In this document: positions 45,744 through 54,633 of the stretch, piece after piece
Numbering within the stretch: the stretch's first letter is position 1
Layout: each line of letters opens with the position of its first letter
Source: Candidatus Kapaibacterium sp.
Lineage (GTDB): Bacteria; Bacteroidota; Ignavibacteria; Kapaibacteriales; UBA2268
Assembly: GCA_937927515.1 (NCBI GenBank)
Contig: CALBDO010000007.1
Location: 1-58,313, forward strand
DNA: 58,313 nucleotides
Direction of reading: 5' to 3'
The notes under the pieces: generated by a model
The model's database searches: none
What the model saw: only the letters and a program-made list of their open reading frames with translations
Told to the model about the DNA's origin: nothing
Position numbers and translations under genes: made by a program

Positions 45744-47894
45744 TTATGTTGTATTAATAAATTGAACTGTCAAATTTTTTTGCTTTTCATTTATTTCTTT
45801 TTCTAAGCTTTCTATTTCTTTCAATGTTAGTGACAATTCATTTTCGAACTGTTTAAAGGCGTTTTTGTATTCATTCAAGCAATCTTTAAGTTCTTGAATT
45901 TTCTCTTCCTCCTCTCGCAGGTAAATTTCAGCCCGTTCCATAGCTTCTTTTTTTTCCCTCGAAGCAAAGGTATCAATTATAAAGTAAATTAAAATACCAA
46001 ATAGTAATATTGAGAGAATTTTTAATGCAGTACCTAGTCCTTTGATTGATTCAATGTTGATTGACTCTCCAAAAAATAACAAAATATTGTTCCCAGCAAG
46101 GAAAATGGATATTGACACGAAAGTTAGCAAAATGAAAGGCAACCAGATATATTTTTTATTTGTTTTGTATTTTCTCGAGTGTAGCTCAATCAAGTAATTC
46201 TCGCTCGAAACTATACTCTTTTGAATCTCTTGTATTTCCAGACTGATTTTTGTTTTAATAAAATTAATCTTTTTAATTTTTTCTTGCTTTTGGTTTTTTG
46301 CCTCTTCAAGCTGTGCAATTTCTTTTTTATTTTTTTGAGCTATATTTGTCACTACTTCCTTAATAAACTTGTTTTTATCCTCGAAGCGCTCGTTGTCAAC
46401 AATTTTATTAAGCTCTAAAAGGTTATTCCTTAAATCCTCTGGCAGACTGTATTTCTCATTGTTGCGGTTAAAAAGGGTTGATTTAGCTTCGACAAATTTC
46501 TCGATTTTTGGGTAATCCTCTTGAAATATGTTTCGAAGTGTTTCGCCTAATGTGAATTCGTTGAAATACGCTAGATTTCTAAGAATTTTTCTCTCTTCTT
46601 TGTTTAAAGTTTTGAAAATTTCGATATTCTTCTTGAAAATTGAAAAAATTTTACGGTAATTCTCGTATGTTGCTTCATTAAATTCTTTTAGGTAATTTGT
46701 TAGGTAATATTTGTAGCTATCTCTTATTTGGTAAGCATCCAGAAGGTATTTATTCGGTACGCAAAGTTCACTGTTACTAGTGAAGTATTTGCAAATTTTT
46801 TCGTAAAATGGGTAATTTTCAGTAATACTTCGAATAGTCTCTTCTGTGAAAAAATCAGCTACGGAAATTAACTTAAATGTTTCTTGCAACCGTGGATTGA
46901 TTTTTTCCATAATCTTTTCGTAAATGGACCCAAAGAACTCTTTTCGTACCTTCTCCGTTGTATCAAAGTTATAATTTTTGTTTAGTTTGTCTATTGCAAA
47001 TGGGATTCCAAAGGTCTGATTGAGAATTTTATCCGGTGAAATTTTACAATTAATTTGTTCAAGATATTCACTAATATTCTCAGTGTTGAAAGGTTCTATT
47101 CGGATAGTTTCTATTTTATCCTCGGGTTCGGCGCTCAAAAGCTTCCTTAAAGTAAAATTGTAACGAGAAATTAAAATAAACTTAATCTGTATGAAATCGT
47201 TGGCTTTTTTGTTCTTAAGACCATCAATAATCTCGTAGGACTCAAATTCACCGAAGCTTTTGAAAACAATATATCTGTAAAGATGATTCAAAATCCAATT
47301 GTCTATTGTGCTTGCAGCTCGCTCGTAGTTATCAAAAATGAATACAACTTGTAGTTTTTCCTTCAGGTTATTATGATGTAGAATTTGTAGTAGTGAGTAT
47401 ATAATCGCTTCTGAGAGAACATCAAAAAATTTCAACAAAACTCTTTTGTCAATTTTCTTTGTAACAGTTTGATTTATTTCCTCACCGAAATTAACAATTG
47501 AATGTAAGGGGTTTACACCGAGGTAGTCGGTTTCGTAATAGTCGTAGAATTTATAGGCTGAATAAAAAGCTTTGGCAAGTTGTTCATTCCCATTGGTTAG
47601 AATGTCAATCATACTATTGTACTTGTTGATGAAAAAATTTAACTCGTCTTTCAAAAAAATTAATCCTTTTAAATTCGAGATAAGGCTAATATAATTTGAT
47701 AATTGATTTAAATGATTACAGGTACCTAAGTCAAATTTAATGAATAAAGTTTTGCTGTTCAAAGATACTAATTGCTCTATTGCTTTATTGATACAATAAC
47801 TTTTGCCCGCACCAAATGTGCCACCGATGAAAAGAAAAGGCTTGGTGAAATTTAATGTAGAGTTTTGAATCTGTTCTAAGAGCTTACTTGTCAT
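45744..47894 (-). CDS. Membrane-anchored STAND/KAP-like P-loop ATPase
   Basis: A 716-residue protein I cannot assign to a named family. Residues 18-40 hold Walker A (FIGGTFGAGKSYCINKAI). Walker B is probably VVFIFDNYERA near residue 195, followed by FILISRYNF as a sensor-like strand. A helical region follows (about 330-520), then a coiled coil (about 520-570), two membrane helices (about 580-602 and 620-642) with a short loop between, and a second coiled coil to the end. So the ATPase faces the cytoplasm. It is the last gene of the six-gene operon, ATGA-coupled to the RsbW-like gene, which suggests it acts with that kinase. Family naming is inference. Confidence 0.7.
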   Translation of the reverse strand: MTSKLLEQIQNSTLNFTKPFLFIGGTFGAGKSYCINKAIEQLVSLNSKTLFIKFDLGTCNHLNQLSNYISLISNLKGLIFLKDELNFFINKYNSMIDILTNGNEQLAKAFYSAYKFYDYYETDYLGVNPLHSIVNFGEEINQTVTKKIDKRVLLKFFDVLSEAIIYSLLQILHHNNLKEKLQVVFIFDNYERAASTIDNWILNHLYRYIVFKSFGEFESYEIIDGLKNKKANDFIQIKFILISRYNFTLRKLLSAEPEDKIETIRIEPFNTENISEYLEQINCKISPDKILNQTFGIPFAIDKLNKNYNFDTTEKVRKEFFGSIYEKIMEKINPRLQETFKLISVADFFTEETIRSITENYPFYEKICKYFTSNSELCVPNKYLLDAYQIRDSYKYYLTNYLKEFNEATYENYRKIFSIFKKNIEIFKTLNKEERKILRNLAYFNEFTLGETLRNIFQEDYPKIEKFVEAKSTLFNRNNEKYSLPEDLRNNLLELNKIVDNERFEDKNKFIKEVVTNIAQKNKKEIAQLEEAKNQKQEKIKKINFIKTKISLEIQEIQKSIVSSENYLIELHSRKYKTNKKYIWLPFILLTFVSISIFLAGNNILLFFGESINIESIKGLGTALKILSILLFGILIYFIIDTFASREKKEAMERAEIYLREEEEKIQELKDCLNEYKNAFKQFENELSLTLKEIESLEKEINEKQKNLTVQFINTT

Positions 47895-48319
47895 ATCTTT
47901 TTAATATTAAATTCCATACTTATGATGGTTCCATACCGACTTGTGGTAATTGATGTTTTGTCAGAAAGTTCTTTAATGATAAAGATACCACGACCACGCT
48001 CTTTGAGAATATTTTCTGGAGTTCGAGGGTCTTCGAGTGTGGAAGGGTCGAACCCTTCGCCCTCGTCAGCAACGGATACAATAATTTTATTTGGCTCGGC
48101 GATAACTTTAAAAACTACCTTTTTGTTTGGGTTATATCGATTGCCGTGCTGAATTGCATTTATTACCGCTTCTGTTGAAGCTACAAGAATGTTGTGGAAT
48201 TTATTGCTGTCGAAAGGAATTTTCTTTTGTATAGATTTAAGAAGATTTTCAATCTCTGAAATTACTTTTTTATCAGATGAGAATTTTTTTTCTACTTCTA
48301 TTTTTACACCTTCGCTCAT
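47891..48319 (-). CDS. RsbW-like serine kinase (HATPase_c)
   Basis: A 142-residue GHKL ATP-binding protein of the anti-sigma-factor/serine-kinase type. The N box is STEAVINAIQHGNR, the G1 box VADEGEGFDP and the G2 box ERGRGIFIIKELSDK. There is no sensor or His domain. Such kinases phosphorylate RsbV-like antagonists and often hold a sigma factor, but neither a sigma factor nor an RsbV/RsbU partner is in the window. The ATG at 48319 overlaps the previous stop (TGATG), and the stop overlaps the ATPase start (ATGA). Confidence 0.88.
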   Translation of the reverse strand: MSEGVKIEVEKKFSSDKKVISEIENLLKSIQKKIPFDSNKFHNILVASTEAVINAIQHGNRYNPNKKVVFKVIAEPNKIIVSVADEGEGFDPSTLEDPRTPENILKERGRGIFIIKELSDKTSITTSRYGTIISMEFNIKKI

Positions 48320-50208
48320 CACAGGTTTACCCTTGTGGTTATCGTCAAATTTGGATTTTCTCCCACAATTTTATAATTCCAAAATTTTAGTTCGTACCAA
48401 CCTTGCAAAAATATCATATTATTATTTCCTAAAAAAAACTTTATTTCAACTTCGGGCGAATAGGAATAGTAAAAATAGTTTTCTCTGAGAAGGTTTTTAT
48501 TTAATGGTGTTTGTTTGATATTATACAACCTGGCTCCAATACTATACAGTATTTTTTTTGAGTAAGTTAGATTTAACATTGTTTTGAGGAAAATTTCTTT
48601 TATTTCCATTTCTTTAGTCATTGCAAATTCTCTCCAAAAAAGATTGCCTCTTTCGGAATATTTATAAATAAAAGTGTTCGATAATGTTAAAAACTTAGAA
48701 AGCTTAATTTCGAGGGAGTCTCTATATGTAAACTGGCGAAAGGCGTAACTTTTAACGTTGTTACCGATTATTTCAAAATCGTAAACCAAATAGTTAGAAA
48801 AAATTTCGAAGTTCGGTTTCCATATGAAATAATTAGTTTTATATATAGAGCTTGTACTAAGCTTGATAGCTCTGTTCCAGTTATTTAGAGAACTTTTCGA
48901 AGCTTTCAAGAAAACAAGGTGGTTTAGTTGTAAATCGAAAGTTATTCCTAATGTATAATACTCGGAAAACTTTTGTTTGGTGGAAAGCGATGTTAGGAAG
49001 GAAAATTCATCTCTATCGTCATCGTTTAGCGGTGATGGGGTATCGTATCTTAGTATACTAATGTTGCCTTTAAGGGAGGTAAAGTTATCCTTGAAAGGGA
49101 GATTTAAAATGTAATACGCATTTAAACGGGTTTGATAATTGTTCTTTTGTATTTCAGTTAATGAAAGTTGTGAGAAATTTTGATGGTCCAGCTCAAATCT
49201 TTTATCGAGATTATTTTCTTCGGTACGAAAATAATAGTTTAAACCAATTTTAGGTTCAAAGAATTTTGTAGTTGAGAGGATTTCAAAATTTAAGTTAATC
49301 CATTGTTCAGAAAGAATTCTTTCTGTTGCAGAAACTGGGCTTGTTGGGTCGAAAATATTGTAATATCGTTTAATTTGATAGAAGACCATTTGTCCACTAA
49401 AGTTTAAGGTGGTCTTTGAAAATAAATTGTAGTTTAAGTTAAATGATGGTGCAATTTTGTCTTCTTTCCTCGTCTCGAAGAAATTTGTTAGGTACACTGG
49501 AAATACGATATAATCTCGTTTCAAATTATTGTATACAAAAGCGATAGAAAGAGCATTGTCCCCCTCGAAAGAGCCAAAAATATTGCTATATAAGGTAAAA
49601 TTCGAGTTTGTTCTTCCATCTTTTAATTTCACATTTTCATATCCAAGGTAAGAAGTTAGATTGACCTCGGTTAAGCTAAGGTTTTTAATTGAAGTTTCAA
49701 GGAATAATCTGGGTCCATTTTGAACAATAGAAACTTGCTTATTTTTTTCAAAGCCATAAGATAGAGTCGACTCGATGTTTTTCGGAAAAATTAGCTTTAC
49801 TCCAATATTAGAATTCAACTTTTCAGCTTGGTTCAAACCAATTTGTTTTGAATCAGAATTCAAAAGATAATTTGTTTGGAAAAAAATATTTATTCCTTTG
49901 AGAAAGCTTTGTGTTATTGAAACATTTAAATTCTCTGCGTCTTTGCTCGAGAATTCGTTTGCTTTAATTTTAGTACCCTCGTACTCATTTTCGACTTTAA
50001 TATTTGTCTGATAGAAACTCTTTTCAAATTGTAAGGAATTTACCAGTCTGTAAATGTTAAATTGCTTATCGAAGATTTGATGAAAGAAATTACCTTGCCT
50101 TAAAGTGTCTTGAATTTTATTTATAAAAGTTTGGGGGTATACCTTCATACTAACAAAAATATATAGAATTACTACGTGGTGAATAAATTTATCTTTAATT
50201 ATTTTCAC
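48319..50208 (-). CDS. Predicted outer-membrane beta-barrel protein
   Basis: A 629-residue protein I do not recognise by name. The GTG start gives a hydrophobic leader (HHVVILYIFVSMKVYPQ). The rest is a long series of strands with alternating residues and aromatic ends, such as NSNFTLYSNIFGSFEG and IGLNYYFRTEENN, ending LTITTRVNL. That is typical of large outer-membrane barrels without a plug domain motif. It starts 14 bases inside the FlbD-like gene and stops at TGATG before the kinase, so it is made together with cytoplasmic signalling proteins, which is unusual. Confidence 0.7.
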   Translation of the reverse strand: MKIIKDKFIHHVVILYIFVSMKVYPQTFINKIQDTLRQGNFFHQIFDKQFNIYRLVNSLQFEKSFYQTNIKVENEYEGTKIKANEFSSKDAENLNVSITQSFLKGINIFFQTNYLLNSDSKQIGLNQAEKLNSNIGVKLIFPKNIESTLSYGFEKNKQVSIVQNGPRLFLETSIKNLSLTEVNLTSYLGYENVKLKDGRTNSNFTLYSNIFGSFEGDNALSIAFVYNNLKRDYIVFPVYLTNFFETRKEDKIAPSFNLNYNLFSKTTLNFSGQMVFYQIKRYYNIFDPTSPVSATERILSEQWINLNFEILSTTKFFEPKIGLNYYFRTEENNLDKRFELDHQNFSQLSLTEIQKNNYQTRLNAYYILNLPFKDNFTSLKGNISILRYDTPSPLNDDDRDEFSFLTSLSTKQKFSEYYTLGITFDLQLNHLVFLKASKSSLNNWNRAIKLSTSSIYKTNYFIWKPNFEIFSNYLVYDFEIIGNNVKSYAFRQFTYRDSLEIKLSKFLTLSNTFIYKYSERGNLFWREFAMTKEMEIKEIFLKTMLNLTYSKKILYSIGARLYNIKQTPLNKNLLRENYFYYSYSPEVEIKFFLGNNNMIFLQGWYELKFWNYKIVGENPNLTITTRVNL

Positions 50209-50401
50209 CTTCAGCGGGTGGGTGGTGGAACTTCTTTTTGTATTCGACCACTAGTTGAGTTATTTCTTCGTAAGTTTCCTTAACTAAATATTTTTTCCCA
50301 CTTTTTAATGATATTACAGAGTGGGGGCCAATTTCTATTGTTTCAATCTCTTCAGCATTGATAACAATTTTCTGCCCATCTATTTTGGTTACCAAAATCA
50401 T
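50195..50401 (-). CDS. FlbD/SwrD-like small protein
   Basis: A 68-residue protein: MILVTKIDGQKIVINAEEIE, then SVISLKSGKKYLVKETYEEI. This matches the FlbD/SwrD family (start V-T-x-x-[DN]-G, then I-x-L-x-[ST]-G-K-K-Y-x-V-K-E), usually found in flagellar operons of spirochaetes and Firmicutes, where SwrD raises motor power. No flagellar gene is present here. A proline tail (HHPPAEGENN) is added. It is ATGA-coupled to the regulator upstream and overlaps the barrel gene downstream. Confidence 0.8.
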   Translation of the reverse strand: MILVTKIDGQKIVINAEEIETIEIGPHSVISLKSGKKYLVKETYEEITQLVVEYKKKFHHPPAEGENN

Positions 50402-51609
50402 TGTAATTTTACGTATATCCTACCAATTATTGGGTCAGTTTTGGCTATGGTTTGAATTCTTTCAACAGTTTCAGGAGTTAGTAAAGTTCCTGCAGAAGCA
50501 ATTTTAAAGCCAGAGTCAGTTACGATATTTCTTGCCAGAGTCATACCTTCTTTGAGTTCTTCTAATTCTATCGAGCGTTCCGTAGGTACTTTTAACTTTG
50601 AAGCTCGATATGCCAAGTACTGGTCCAGAAGGACAACTAGTTTGAAATCATAAATTCTTCTAGATTCTGCCTCGAGCATAGCCACGATTTTGTTTGTTTC
50701 GTACTTCTTTTGTTGATAATAATCGTCGTAGTCAATTACAACACGGAGTAAACGAGAAGCTAGGGGTATATTGCTTTTTTCAAGTTTGTCTGGGAGTCCA
50801 CTACCATCATAGTTTTCATAAATATGAATGATTACATTTGCAACATCATCGTACGCACGGAAAAAAGATAAGAGTTCTTTAGCAAAAATTGGGATTTTTT
50901 CCATTTTTTCATTTTTTAGGTACCCGTTTTGAGTTGGTATCTCACTTATATTTCTCTCAGCAAGTTGAAGTCTACCTATGAAGCAAAGTTTCGATGCTTC
51001 TTTTAAAAGGTATTTAAGATTTTCGTCCTCTGGGTCGTACTCATTGGCTATCCATAGAGCTATTTCAGTGATGCGGTTGATTCGTTCAGCTCCATCTGGA
51101 ATTTTTAGGCATTCAAATAAGTATAACATATCACGCATTCGGAGTGTATCTTTACGGAGTTCTTCCTTTAGTTCCTCTATTGTTTTGTTGCGCATCTGTA
51201 TTGTCTTGTACAAGTGCATTATTCTGAAAGCATTTTGAAATTTTGCAATTACTTCATCAATGAGAAAAGGTTTATTGATAAAATCGTCTGCACCAACTTG
51301 AAGTGCTTTAAAGTTCAATTCTGCATTGGAGTTGGAAGTTATGAAAATTATAAAAATATTCCTTATGTTAGGATTATTTGATTCACGGATATTTTTTACA
51401 AGTTGTTCCGTATGGAATTGGTCTTCAAGGTAATTTGCAACGATAATCATTAAGTCTTCATACTTTTGCACTAAGTCCCAGCATTCGATGCCATTTTCTG
51501 TTGTGAAAATAGGAGATTTTTTGAAAATTCGTTCTATGACTTTTTTCAAGGAATTCCTTGTAGATTCGTTTTTTTCAACTAAACAAAATGGGATGAATAT
51601 TTCTTCCAT
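50398..51609 (-). CDS. Response regulator with degenerate receiver and HD-GYP domains
   Basis: A 403-residue protein. The receiver domain (about residues 7-130) keeps the conserved Lys (DFINKPF) but lacks the phosphorylated Asp: the usual LIILD becomes MIIVANYLEDQ. The acidic pair at the N-terminus is EK (LVEKNES). A coiled linker (about 130-160) leads to an HD-GYP-like domain (about 175-330) in which HD is CF (SKLCFIGRLQL), the HHE is IYE (IHIYENYDGSGLP) and GYP is GLP. So both phosphorylation and c-di-GMP hydrolysis look lost. A C-terminal module (LKEGMTLARNIVTDSGFKIA) is the usual HD-GYP appendix. It begins directly after the clpB-like stop with no spacer. Confidence 0.8.
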   Translation of the reverse strand: MEEIFIPFCLVEKNESTRNSLKKVIERIFKKSPIFTTENGIECWDLVQKYEDLMIIVANYLEDQFHTEQLVKNIRESNNPNIRNIFIIFITSNSNAELNFKALQVGADDFINKPFLIDEVIAKFQNAFRIMHLYKTIQMRNKTIEELKEELRKDTLRMRDMLYLFECLKIPDGAERINRITEIALWIANEYDPEDENLKYLLKEASKLCFIGRLQLAERNISEIPTQNGYLKNEKMEKIPIFAKELLSFFRAYDDVANVIIHIYENYDGSGLPDKLEKSNIPLASRLLRVVIDYDDYYQQKKYETNKIVAMLEAESRRIYDFKLVVLLDQYLAYRASKLKVPTERSIELEELKEGMTLARNIVTDSGFKIASAGTLLTPETVERIQTIAKTDPIIGRIYVKLQ

Positions 51610-52932
51610 CTAAATTTCAACACCTTTGTGTTTTAGTTCTCGTATGAGAGCTTCGCGCTCAATTTCAAGTTGGCGTATTTTACGTTCTATTGTATCTAAT
51701 TCTTCTGGCAAAGATTCTATTTCTAATTTAATTTTGCTTGCAGCTTCGTCGATTAAATCGATAGCTTTATCTGGGAGAAATCTGTCGGTGATGTATCGAT
51801 GGGAGAGTTCGGCGGCAGCAACAATAGCTGAGTCGGAAATTTTTACACCGTGGTGTACTTCATATTTCTCTTTTAATCCACGAAGGATAGAAATTGTTTC
51901 TTCAACTGTTGGTTCATCAACAAAGACCTTTTGGAATCTTCTTTCCAAAGCTGGGTCTTTTTCGATGTATTTTTGATACTCGTCGAGCGTGGTAGCCCCA
52001 ATGCAGCGAAGTTCTCCACGTGCAAGGGCTGGTTTTAATATATTCGCAGCGTCCATACTGCCTTGTGTGGCACCTGCACCGATAAGAGTGTGTATTTCAT
52101 CGATAAAAAGGATAATTTGACCATCCGATTCGGTAACTTCTTTGATAACAGCTTTTAACCTTTCTTCAAATTGGCCACGAAATTGTGTTCCAGCAACCAA
52201 CGCCCCCATATCAAGCATAACAACAATTTTATTTCTGAGATTTTCGGGTACATCCCCCGAAACTATCATCTGTGCAATTCCTTCGACGATTGCTGTTTTT
52301 CCAACACCGGGTTCGCCAATAAGTACTGGATTGTTTTTTGTTCTACGAGAAAGCACTTGAAGAACACGACGAATTTCGTCCTCTCGCCCGATGACTGGGT
52401 CGAGCTTTCCTTCGCGTACCTCGTCGTTTAAAATTCGACCATACTTGCGCAAAGCTTGGTACTTTTCTTCTGGACTTTGGTCTATAACTCGATGTCCACC
52501 CCTTATTTCTTTTAGGGTTTTTAAAATATCTTCTTTGGTAACATTTAAGCTTTTAAGCAAATCGGCAACATTGGAACGGACGGATGTTAAGGCTAGTAAC
52601 AAATGTTCGACACTTATATACTCGTCGTGCATTTGCTTTGCTTCCTTGAAGGCGCTGTCGAACACTTCGTTTAAAGATGGGCTAAGGTATAAATTACCAC
52701 CATATCCCGTAACTTTTGGTAAACCCTCTAACAATTCATTGACCTTTATTTTTAGTCTTGGAACGTTTACTTCGAGTTTCTTAAGTATTTCTACTACAAT
52801 TCCATCTTCATCCTGAATTAATGCTGCGAAAACGTGTATTGGTTCGAGGGTTTGGTTATTGTAGTTTAGTGCAATTTCTTGTGCAGTTTGTATCGCTTCT
52901 TGCGACCTTAGAGTAAATTTTTGTAGATTCAT
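51610..52932 (-). CDS. ClpB-like protein lacking the second ATPase domain
   Basis: A 440-residue protein matching only the first half of ClpB (about 860 residues). It has both Clp N-terminal repeats ([10 protein letters not shown]-type opening [26 protein letters not shown]), a complete first AAA+ domain (Walker [14 protein letters not shown] near residue 208, Walker [11 protein letters not shown] near 280, arginine finger [10 protein letters not shown]), and the first helix of the middle coiled coil ([20 protein letters not shown]) where it stops. The second ATPase domain is absent, not frameshifted: the next gene's ATG follows the TAG at once. First gene of the operon, divergent from porX over 120 bases. 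Confidence 0.85.
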
Positions 52933-53052: not shown

Positions 53053-54633
53053 ATGGAAAAGACAAAAAGTCGCATTTTATGGATAGACGATGAGATTGAA
53101 TTGCTGCGCCCTCATTTGATTTTACTCAATCAAAAAGGCTATCAAGTCGAAACGGCAAACAGTGGAGAAGATGGCATAGAGCTAGTAAAAAGGAACTTTT
53201 ATGATTTGATTTTTCTCGACGAGATGATGCTTGGGATAAGTGGTCTAGAAACACTGACTAAAATAAAGGAGATTAATCCTTATTTGCCGGTCGTAATGAT
53301 AACCAAAAATGAAGCCGAAACATTAATGGAAGAAGCTATCGGAAGAAAAATTGATGGTTATCTAACAAAGCCAGTTAATCCGACGCAAATTCTTGCTATT
53401 TGTAAAAGATTCTTGGAATCGGAAAGAATAAATCAGGAAAAGTTAATTCAAAATTTCTTGCTAGACACGACATCAATTAGAAATAAACTAAATGAAATAA
53501 TACATTTTGATGATTGGGTTAATATTTATTTCAAATTGGTGACTTGGTCGATGGATTTAGATAAGTATCCACAATTGGGACTTACTGATACTTTGAGGGA
53601 TTTATTTAGGGAAGCCAATACTGTCTTTTCAAATTATATTGAAAAAAATTATAAAGAATTAATTAATAAAGAGATTAAGTTTTCTAATCCTATTTTATCG
53701 CCCGAAATAGTTGAAAGATATGTGATACCCCTCATAGATGGTAGGACTTCATTGTTTTTCTTCGTTATAGATTGTTTAAGACTTGACCAATGGCTGGTGA
53801 TGGAAGAGGTCTTACAGCAGTTTTTTAAAATTCAAAGAGAATACTATCTTTCTATACTCCCAACAGCCACACCCTATGCAAGAAATTCAATTTTTGCAGG
53901 ATTATTTCCATATGATATTCAAAAACACTATCCGCAATTTTGGGTTGGAGAGTTAAATACAGAGGACCACAAGCAGAATGCATTTGAAAAGGATTTACTC
54001 GTTGAACAACTTAATAGAAAAAAAATAAAACTGGATATTCCATTAACATATATAAAAATACACGAGACGGAATTTGGTAAAAAAATTGAGAATGAAATAC
54101 ACAAATATGTACAAAATCGGCTTACAGCAATAGTTGTAAATTCAGTGGATATGATTGCCCATTCTCGCTCAGATTTTGCCATTTTAAAAGAAATTGCGCC
54201 AAATGAATCTGCTTATCGCTCTTTGACTCGTTCTTGGTTCAATCATTCAAGTCTTTTGGGGATGATGCAGACTTTGTCTAAATTTCCTAACGTTAAGCTA
54301 ATTTTAACGACAGACCACGGTGCAATTAGGTGTATGCGTGGAGTAAAGGTTTTGGGCGATAGAGAAACCTCTACATCTCTTAGGTATAAGTTTGGGAAAA
54401 ATGTAAAGTGCGACCCCAGATATGCTATGCAAGTTCAAGATTTAACTGAATTGAAGCTTCCGAGAATATCGATTACCGTTAACAATATTATTGCAAAAGA
54501 AGATTACTATTTTGTTTATCCAACGGACTTCCATTATTATTTGCAAAGATACAAGGATAGCATTCAGCATGGTGGTATATCGATGGAAGAGATGATAATA
54601 CCAGTTGTTACATTGGAACCAATGAATTTTTAA
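53053..54633 (+). CDS. porX: T9SS response regulator PorX (receiver + PglZ)
   Basis: A 526-residue two-domain regulator. Residues 1-125 form a receiver with an intact acidic pair (LWIDDEIEL), phosphorylated Asp in DLIFLDEMMLG, Thr in MITKNEAE and Lys in YLTKPVNP. After helical linkers, the C-terminal PglZ/alkaline-phosphatase-like domain (about 220-526) has metal-site motifs FFVIDCLRLDQW, ILPTATPYARNS, LTTDHGAIR and QHGGISMEEMIIPVVTL. In Porphyromonas, PorX is activated by PorY and links to T9SS gene expression and SigP. No porY is in the window. It is divergent from the clpB-like operon, and its receiver is intact unlike that operon's. Confidence 0.93.
   Translation: MEKTKSRILWIDDEIELLRPHLILLNQKGYQVETANSGEDGIELVKRNFYDLIFLDEMMLGISGLETLTKIKEINPYLPVVMITKNEAETLMEEAIGRKIDGYLTKPVNPTQILAICKRFLESERINQEKLIQNFLLDTTSIRNKLNEIIHFDDWVNIYFKLVTWSMDLDKYPQLGLTDTLRDLFREANTVFSNYIEKNYKELINKEIKFSNPILSPEIVERYVIPLIDGRTSLFFFVIDCLRLDQWLVMEEVLQQFFKIQREYYLSILPTATPYARNSIFAGLFPYDIQKHYPQFWVGELNTEDHKQNAFEKDLLVEQLNRKKIKLDIPLTYIKIHETEFGKKIENEIHKYVQNRLTAIVVNSVDMIAHSRSDFAILKEIAPNESAYRSLTRSWFNHSSLLGMMQTLSKFPNVKLILTTDHGAIRCMRGVKVLGDRETSTSLRYKFGKNVKCDPRYAMQVQDLTELKLPRISITVNNIIAKEDYYFVYPTDFHYYLQRYKDSIQHGGISMEEMIIPVVTLEPMNF

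Follow-up and report, generated by a model that had tools for sequence, protein, structure and literature searches.

Why does a gene for half of the disaggregase ClpB stand directly upstream of a cassette that includes an outer-membrane barrel? The question is raised by a 58,313-nucleotide contig of Candidatus Kapaibacterium sp. (CALBDO010000007.1, our contig C7), the whole of which is called the window here. Its minus strand carries, at 45744-52932, genes for a ClpB half, a degenerate response regulator, an FlbD-like protein, an outer-membrane barrel, an RsbW-like kinase and a membrane ATPase. The initial annotation had read these six genes as a candidate envelope signalling module. Our analysis makes it very likely that the product of 51610-52932 is the N-terminal half of a ClpB encoded by two genes, the partner gene being distant; the adjoining cassette most probably forms an envelope-linked unit of its own.

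In a Pfam-type family search the ClpB half (hereafter N-half) contained two Clp_N domains, an AAA domain and AAA_lid_9. It scored 681 bits against the ClpB model TIGR03346 and covered model positions 1-428 (1-429 in the genome search). The remainder is encoded in the same genome outside the window, by a gene of 439 residues (C-half; G000:C3:87788-89104, minus strand) that covers positions 427-852. Because the window is the whole of contig C7, the two halves lie on different contigs. Alignment to PDB entry 4d2q, which we take to be E. coli ClpB, placed the N-half on ClpB residues 1-433 and the C-half on residues 430-850. Thus nothing of ClpB is lost, and the N domain, D1, M domain and D2 are all encoded, on two genes. 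Joined end to end, the halves match ClpB/Hsp104 across almost all 853 positions of the model, in their sequence, the order of their domains and their catalytic motifs. The genome also encodes a separate long Clp of 864 codons, 48% identical to the N-half, in which the M-domain region of TIGR03346 (positions 452-527) was unmatched and which therefore looks ClpC-like. Long Clps of the ClpC type, a two-ring unfoldase, were 45-51% identical to the N-half among the matches listed and are not the split protein. The N-half comprises the N domain and D1 of a ClpB that is split in nature, and is no signalling component.

The split protein differs from ClpB/Hsp104 in being made as two polypeptides from two genes, and the cut, at residue ~430-433, is the start of the M domain, judging by the PDB alignment and the usual borders of the ClpB domains. 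All 52 N-halves compared end 2-15 residues past the motif LEIExxALxxE, and in the 36 C-halves a conserved helix resembling RLxEIEKEL follows within a few residues of the start (35 by a loose pattern, the last by eye). Full-length relatives continue through this seam, e.g. EREALKREKDEAS.RL. From the position of the seam it follows that the terminal part of the D1 small domain is on the C-half; a GIP motif is present in 33 of the 36. The catalytic motifs are retained on both sides. Walker A, Walker B, the arginine pair and the pore aromatic occur in 52/52 N-halves, Walker A and the pore loop in 36/36 C-halves and Walker B in 35/36. The M-domain tyrosine, which belongs to the DnaK-contact region, is Tyr in 35/36. 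Set aside as broken, and left out of the motif counts, were the frameshifted full ClpB of genome G293, the C-half of G055 and the contig-cut or broken named loci L163, L175, L180, L197 and L209. In four single-contig relatives the halves are spaced by ~69 kb (G002, on opposite strands), 323 kb (G055), 338 kb (G088) and, if the genome is circular, ~784 kb (G063). A frameshift artefact as the source of the split was ruled out because the halves are so far apart. An origin from a split intein or from read-through was likewise rejected, as the N-half closes with a short tail, the C-half starts from a Met of its own, and nothing like an intein extension was seen by eye.

The same arrangement extends through the order. 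In a sample of 119 genomes, the window's own included, stand-alone N-halves were found in 104, C-halves also in 104 and both in 96; these counts take in a few contig-cut pieces and the frameshifted C-half of G055. None of the 119 yielded a match above the TIGR03346 cut-off of 1232 bits, and hence none had all four ClpB domains on one polypeptide over that cut-off, vs 8/14 control genomes that were positive. In the phylum sample, 257 of 392 genomes had a match over the cut-off. Outside the order we re-searched 24 genomes that had been picked because their best score lay below that of a full ClpB, and both halves were present in 18. The other six comprise the frameshift in G293, two contig-cut cases (G317, G320) and three genomes without a ClpB-type half (G157, G457, G458). 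A family of two genera and 61 genomes had the N-half in at least 58, the C-half in at least 59 and both in at least 56, with single-chain ClpB over the cut-off in 0/61. That this family contains Chlorobium follows from the Chlorobium contig SZXY01000059, whose N-half (an open frame of 444 codons) shares 92% identity with the one in G128, a genome of this family, and whose neighbouring genes are common with G189. Among the matches listed (80 named loci), this contig alone has an intact half ending at the seam, the others being full-length, contig-cut or broken. Genomes of our sample whose ClpB is near-identical to named Rhodothermus and Chlorobium loci carry the label "same phylum, other class". 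UniProt may list two ClpB entries for Chlorobium tepidum, which would presumably be these two halves.

A decaying fragment of a duplicated ClpB would also be truncated relative to ClpB, as the N-half is. However, the N-half keeps 59-93% identity across 104/119 genomes, its end is constant, and no ClpB over the cut-off remains in the order. Together with the motifs kept in all 52 sequences read, this conservation in our view already refutes decay, to which we give next to no credence.

Several observations weigh against a two-gene ClpB. One half only was found in 16/119 genomes of the order (8 with the N-half, 8 with the C-half) and neither half in 7/119, among them G054, which is rated 100% complete; short pieces cut off by contig ends account for part of these misses (G005, G014). 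An extra single-chain Clp of 884-933 codons and 742-776 bits occurs in G064, G069, G076, G078 and G088. The C-half of G055 (L306), a single-contig genome, is frameshifted, for which error, decay or a programmed shift are all possible. The halves were never neighbours in one operon in the genomes checked. No CIRCE (controlling inverted repeat of chaperone expression) element was found upstream of 41 N-halves and 29 C-halves, the best site having 6 mismatches in 18, as in shuffled sequence. Upstream 20-base matches between the halves averaged 14.1/20 within a genome vs 13.6 between genomes (37 genomes). Finally, the approximately unbiased (AU) test mildly rejects a single clade of all split ClpBs (p = 0.022).

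The extra Clp below the cut-off aligns with almost the whole ClpB model (in G078 from position 146 onward) in these 5/119 genomes; it lies at G064:C141, G069:C54, G076:C73, G078:C9 and G088:C1:145734-148283, in genomes that also have the halves (in G064 the N-half only). Upstream matches reached 15/20 in 35% of comparisons within a genome vs 17% between genomes. This within-genome excess may come from base composition and was not used as evidence. A shared heat-shock operator for both halves was rejected, there being no CIRCE and an upstream similarity barely above the between-genome level.

The genomes with one half only (8/119 each way) would also be expected if the N-half were a free-standing single-ring AAA+ unfoldase, perhaps serving the envelope cassette, and the C-half an independent single-ring protein. 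The recurrence of the N-half before the barrel, in 21/44 genomes of the window's family and once outside the order (G193), fits this as well. Yet the two halves tile ClpB without a missing stretch, and the D1 small domain is incomplete on the N-half, its final part being found on the C-half. Moreover, both halves occur together in 96/119 and at least 56/61 genomes, none of them with a ClpB over the cut-off. We therefore regard two independent single-ring proteins as improbable and prefer a ClpB in two chains.

The phylogeny bears on how often the split arose. A FastTree phylogeny was built from 124 rows, 38 of them labelled split (G293 included), and an IQ-TREE phylogeny from 59 rows (32 split, 27 full); from the latter, G293, the broken loci and five near-copies were left out, and its 21 outgroup rows were hand-picked for breadth. 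In the trees, the split ClpBs of the order form one clade (99) and those of the Chlorobium-containing group another (100; Shimodaira-Hasegawa-like approximate likelihood ratio test), and the split ClpBs of four further families of the window's class are placed among full-length ones. Holding the split ClpBs of that class together gave p = 0.31 in the AU test. Tree and AU test thus lean towards more than one origin, or towards re-fusion. A single origin is in turn favoured by the like seam and by shared neighbours: plsY and gpsA adjoin the C-half both in the order and in G237 (L307, L313-L316, L320), and at L269 of G193, a genome from a distant family of another class, the N-half lies directly upstream of the barrel. 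In the Chlorobium-containing family plsY and gpsA lie a few genes off, on the other side (L293, L295, L300). The case of G193 hints that the neighbourhood of N-half and barrel is old. We also considered a bolder proposal, that the two-chain ClpB is ancestral to a clade uniting green sulfur bacteria with the window's class, with rings made from separate promoters and an N-half tied, through its place next to the barrel gene, to envelope assembly and able to act without the D2 ring; we hold this to be rather unlikely.

In the two-chain ClpB that we favour, the N-half would supply the N domain and the D1 ATPase ring, and the C-half, from its distant gene, would add the end of D1, the M domain and the D2 ring. 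The chains are predicted to bind via the D1 small domain, whose last part sits on the C-half, and may assemble, as an obligate pair, into a 6+6 hexameric disaggregase acting together with DnaK. The cassette would most likely act as a separate envelope-linked regulatory unit, sharing transcription with the ClpB half and not forming one complex with it.

ClpB/Hsp104 is a model for the coupling of two stacked ATPase rings, whose linkage has been probed by cuts made in the laboratory. ClpB of T. thermophilus was engineered in two pieces, NBD1-M and NBD2 (NBD, nucleotide-binding domain; Beinker et al. 2005, as cited in PMC4239642), a laboratory precedent according to which the nucleotide-binding domains need no covalent joining. 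The split ClpB resembles these pieces in having its rings on separate chains; however, the natural cut keeps the M domain with D2, whereas the engineered pieces keep it with NBD1. Our search of the literature at hand turned up no account of a ClpB encoded by two genes. Gupta and Lorenzini (2007; PMC1887533) state that one Chlorobi species is the only one containing ClpB, which would be explained if a split ClpB had gone unnoticed. The split also bears on how ClpB presence is annotated in genomes. Nature's cut, made where the M domain begins, is kept in two lineages, which offers a ready system for asking whether the rings must be covalently joined, how completion of the D1 small domain in trans comes about and whether each ring has a job of its own.

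We next turn to the cassette itself (Table 1). The sequence coordinates bear out the reading of the initial annotation that all six genes lie on one strand in tight succession. The TAG of the N-half gene abuts the ATG of the response regulator (51610/51609), which runs into the FlbD-like gene through ATGA (50401-50398). The latter gene, with its stop at 50195, overlaps by 14 bases the barrel gene, which starts with GTG at 50208; barrel and RsbW-like gene share TGATG (48321-48317), and RsbW-like gene and ATPase share ATGA (47894-47891). The open reading frame (ORF) tool set the RsbW-like start at GTG 48322, one codon before the TGATG start. Family models were matched over their cut-offs for four of the six genes; the ATPase match is weak, and the barrel was assigned by AlphaFold2.

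Table 1 The six genes at 45744-52932 and their divergent neighbour, with positions in the window.
Gene product	Position	Strand	Remark
clpB N-half, two Clp_N repeats and D1, 440 aa	51610..52932	-	ends at start of M domain
Degenerate response regulator with HD-GYP-type domain, 403 aa	50398..51609	-	in this position in two genera
FlbD/SwrD-family small protein, 68 aa	50195..50401	-	PF06289
Outer-membrane beta-barrel, 629 aa, ~28 strands	48319..50208	-	N-terminus signal-like by eye
RsbW/SpoIIAB-like HATPase_c_2 protein, 143 aa	47891..48322	-	ATP-site boxes intact by eye
STAND/NLR-like P-loop NTPase, 716 aa	45744..47894	-	C-terminal two-helix membrane hairpin within long coiled coils
porX, type IX secretion system response regulator with PglZ domain	53053..54633	+	divergent from clpB N-half gene

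The arrangement recurs in relatives and is therefore more than chance. Among the 44 genomes of the window's family in which both genes were located, the N-half lies directly upstream of the barrel in 21, from nine genera; synteny is thus present in several genera and not limited to one genome. Among the loci fetched, all six genes in order were found in six genomes, five of them from the window's genus and one, G022, from another. Of those 21 genomes, only these six and G036 leave room for the response regulator, G036 being judged by its gap alone. In the order's other families the barrel cassette stood at the N-half in 0/19 loci fetched, and the barrel was found elsewhere in these genomes. 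The genome G008 has response regulator, FlbD-like protein, barrel, RsbW-like kinase and ATPase together without a ClpB half. In G003, N-half, barrel and ATPase each occur twice (contigs C4 and C24), probably as an assembly duplicate.

The constant element is the barrel with its kinase. The barrel was found in 115/119 genomes of the order; in a phylum sample of 247 it was present in 20/20 genomes of the order and 40/41 others of the class, matches elsewhere being partial or weak, and no genome of the Chlorobium-containing family was among the 97 of that sample with a barrel match. An RsbW-like gene lies directly downstream of the barrel, often with overlapping codons, in 42/48 genomes across the order (window 47891-50208; loci L405-L424): 40 by a gap rule, plus G002 and G065, where the ORF start had been set too early. 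It was not found directly after the barrel in the other six of the 48 (G055, G057, G064, G081, G088 and G105). The FlbD-like gene is upstream of the barrel in 27/48, and strong matches to the ATPase (E < 1e-29) occur in 34/119 genomes, a tally of 59 taking in weak partial ones. Thus barrel and RsbW-like kinase are an old conserved core, and FlbD-like protein, ATPase, response regulator and ClpB half vary. Since the pair is constant and the other members are not, the cassette seems to have grown around it. To our knowledge no described system pairs an outer-membrane barrel with an RsbW-like kinase, although no literature search was made on this pair.

These data also bear on the proposal of a single envelope signalling complex, built from all six gene products in fixed stoichiometry and reaching from the cytoplasm to the outer membrane. 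The overlapping junctions speak for it, as do the neighbourhood of N-half and barrel in nine genera and the gene for PorX, divergent beside the N-half in the window and in ten other of 41 loci. Nevertheless, all six in order are confined to two genera among the loci fetched, ClpB half and cassette lie apart in the order's other families, and the ClpB half has a partner that is not adjacent. With that partner elsewhere in the genome and the five remaining genes standing without a ClpB half in G008, neither fixed stoichiometry nor a six-protein complex is supported, and we judge a single complex highly improbable. A single signalling module is therefore upheld only in part: barrel and RsbW-like kinase are conserved as a pair across the order, and the remaining members vary.

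The separate envelope-linked cassette that we prefer combines proteins of diverse type. The response regulator contains Response_reg and HD_5 domains; in the window it is without the usual acidic pair, with which its relative in G008 begins (by eye). The FlbD-like protein scored 73.1 bits against PF06289 (cut-off 24.7), and PorX 658.6 bits against NF052313 (cut-off 300). The barrel fold was predicted by AlphaFold2 with a mean predicted local distance difference test (pLDDT) of 87.6, and 19 members gave no convincing Pfam match. Its best Foldseek matches were TonB-dependent receptors (E 8e-9, query TM-score (TMq) about 0.3), and, among large outer-membrane barrels such as MtrB, the best match of a second look was 6r2q_B of the Mtr complex (Z 16.3, root mean square deviation 8.1, 481 aligned). 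Identity to these structures is only 8-12%, and many unrelated barrels lie within one Z unit, so that the common barrel arrangement may be all that the matches reflect.

The RsbW-like protein resembles RsbW/SpoIIAB anti-sigma kinases in its HATPase_c_2 domain (82.3 bits, Pfam cut-off 27.4). However, it falls far under the cut-offs of the NCBIfam equivalogs (NF003144, 44.5 vs 145; TIGR01925, 44.2 vs 135), and it differs from RsbW/SpoIIAB in having an outer-membrane barrel as constant neighbour. The ATPase has a weak AAA_22 match (P-loop) and two hydrophobic helices at about residues 582-640 within coiled coils, as judged from the model and by eye. Its closest Foldseek match was CED-4 (8jol_B, E 6e-6, TMq 0.30), with ORC/Cdc6 proteins and then plant NLRs following, all at low TM-scores; weak NB-ARC, NACHT and nSTAND matches were seen in some of 24 members and none for the window protein. 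An inner-membrane NTPase and a cytoplasmic kinase encoded together with a barrel may point to control of a partner-switch regulator by envelope status, and these three proteins may have a role at the envelope.

Two further observations concern the surroundings of clpB genes. In nine loci of the order (L318, L307, L312-L315, L317, L322, L323), genes of one cluster stand just past the C-half, and the member at L318 has an OmpA domain, so that both halves stand in front of envelope genes. In the same class, full-length ClpB lies directly beside a DnaK-sized gene of 635-647 codons in 8/12 loci (L326-L337).

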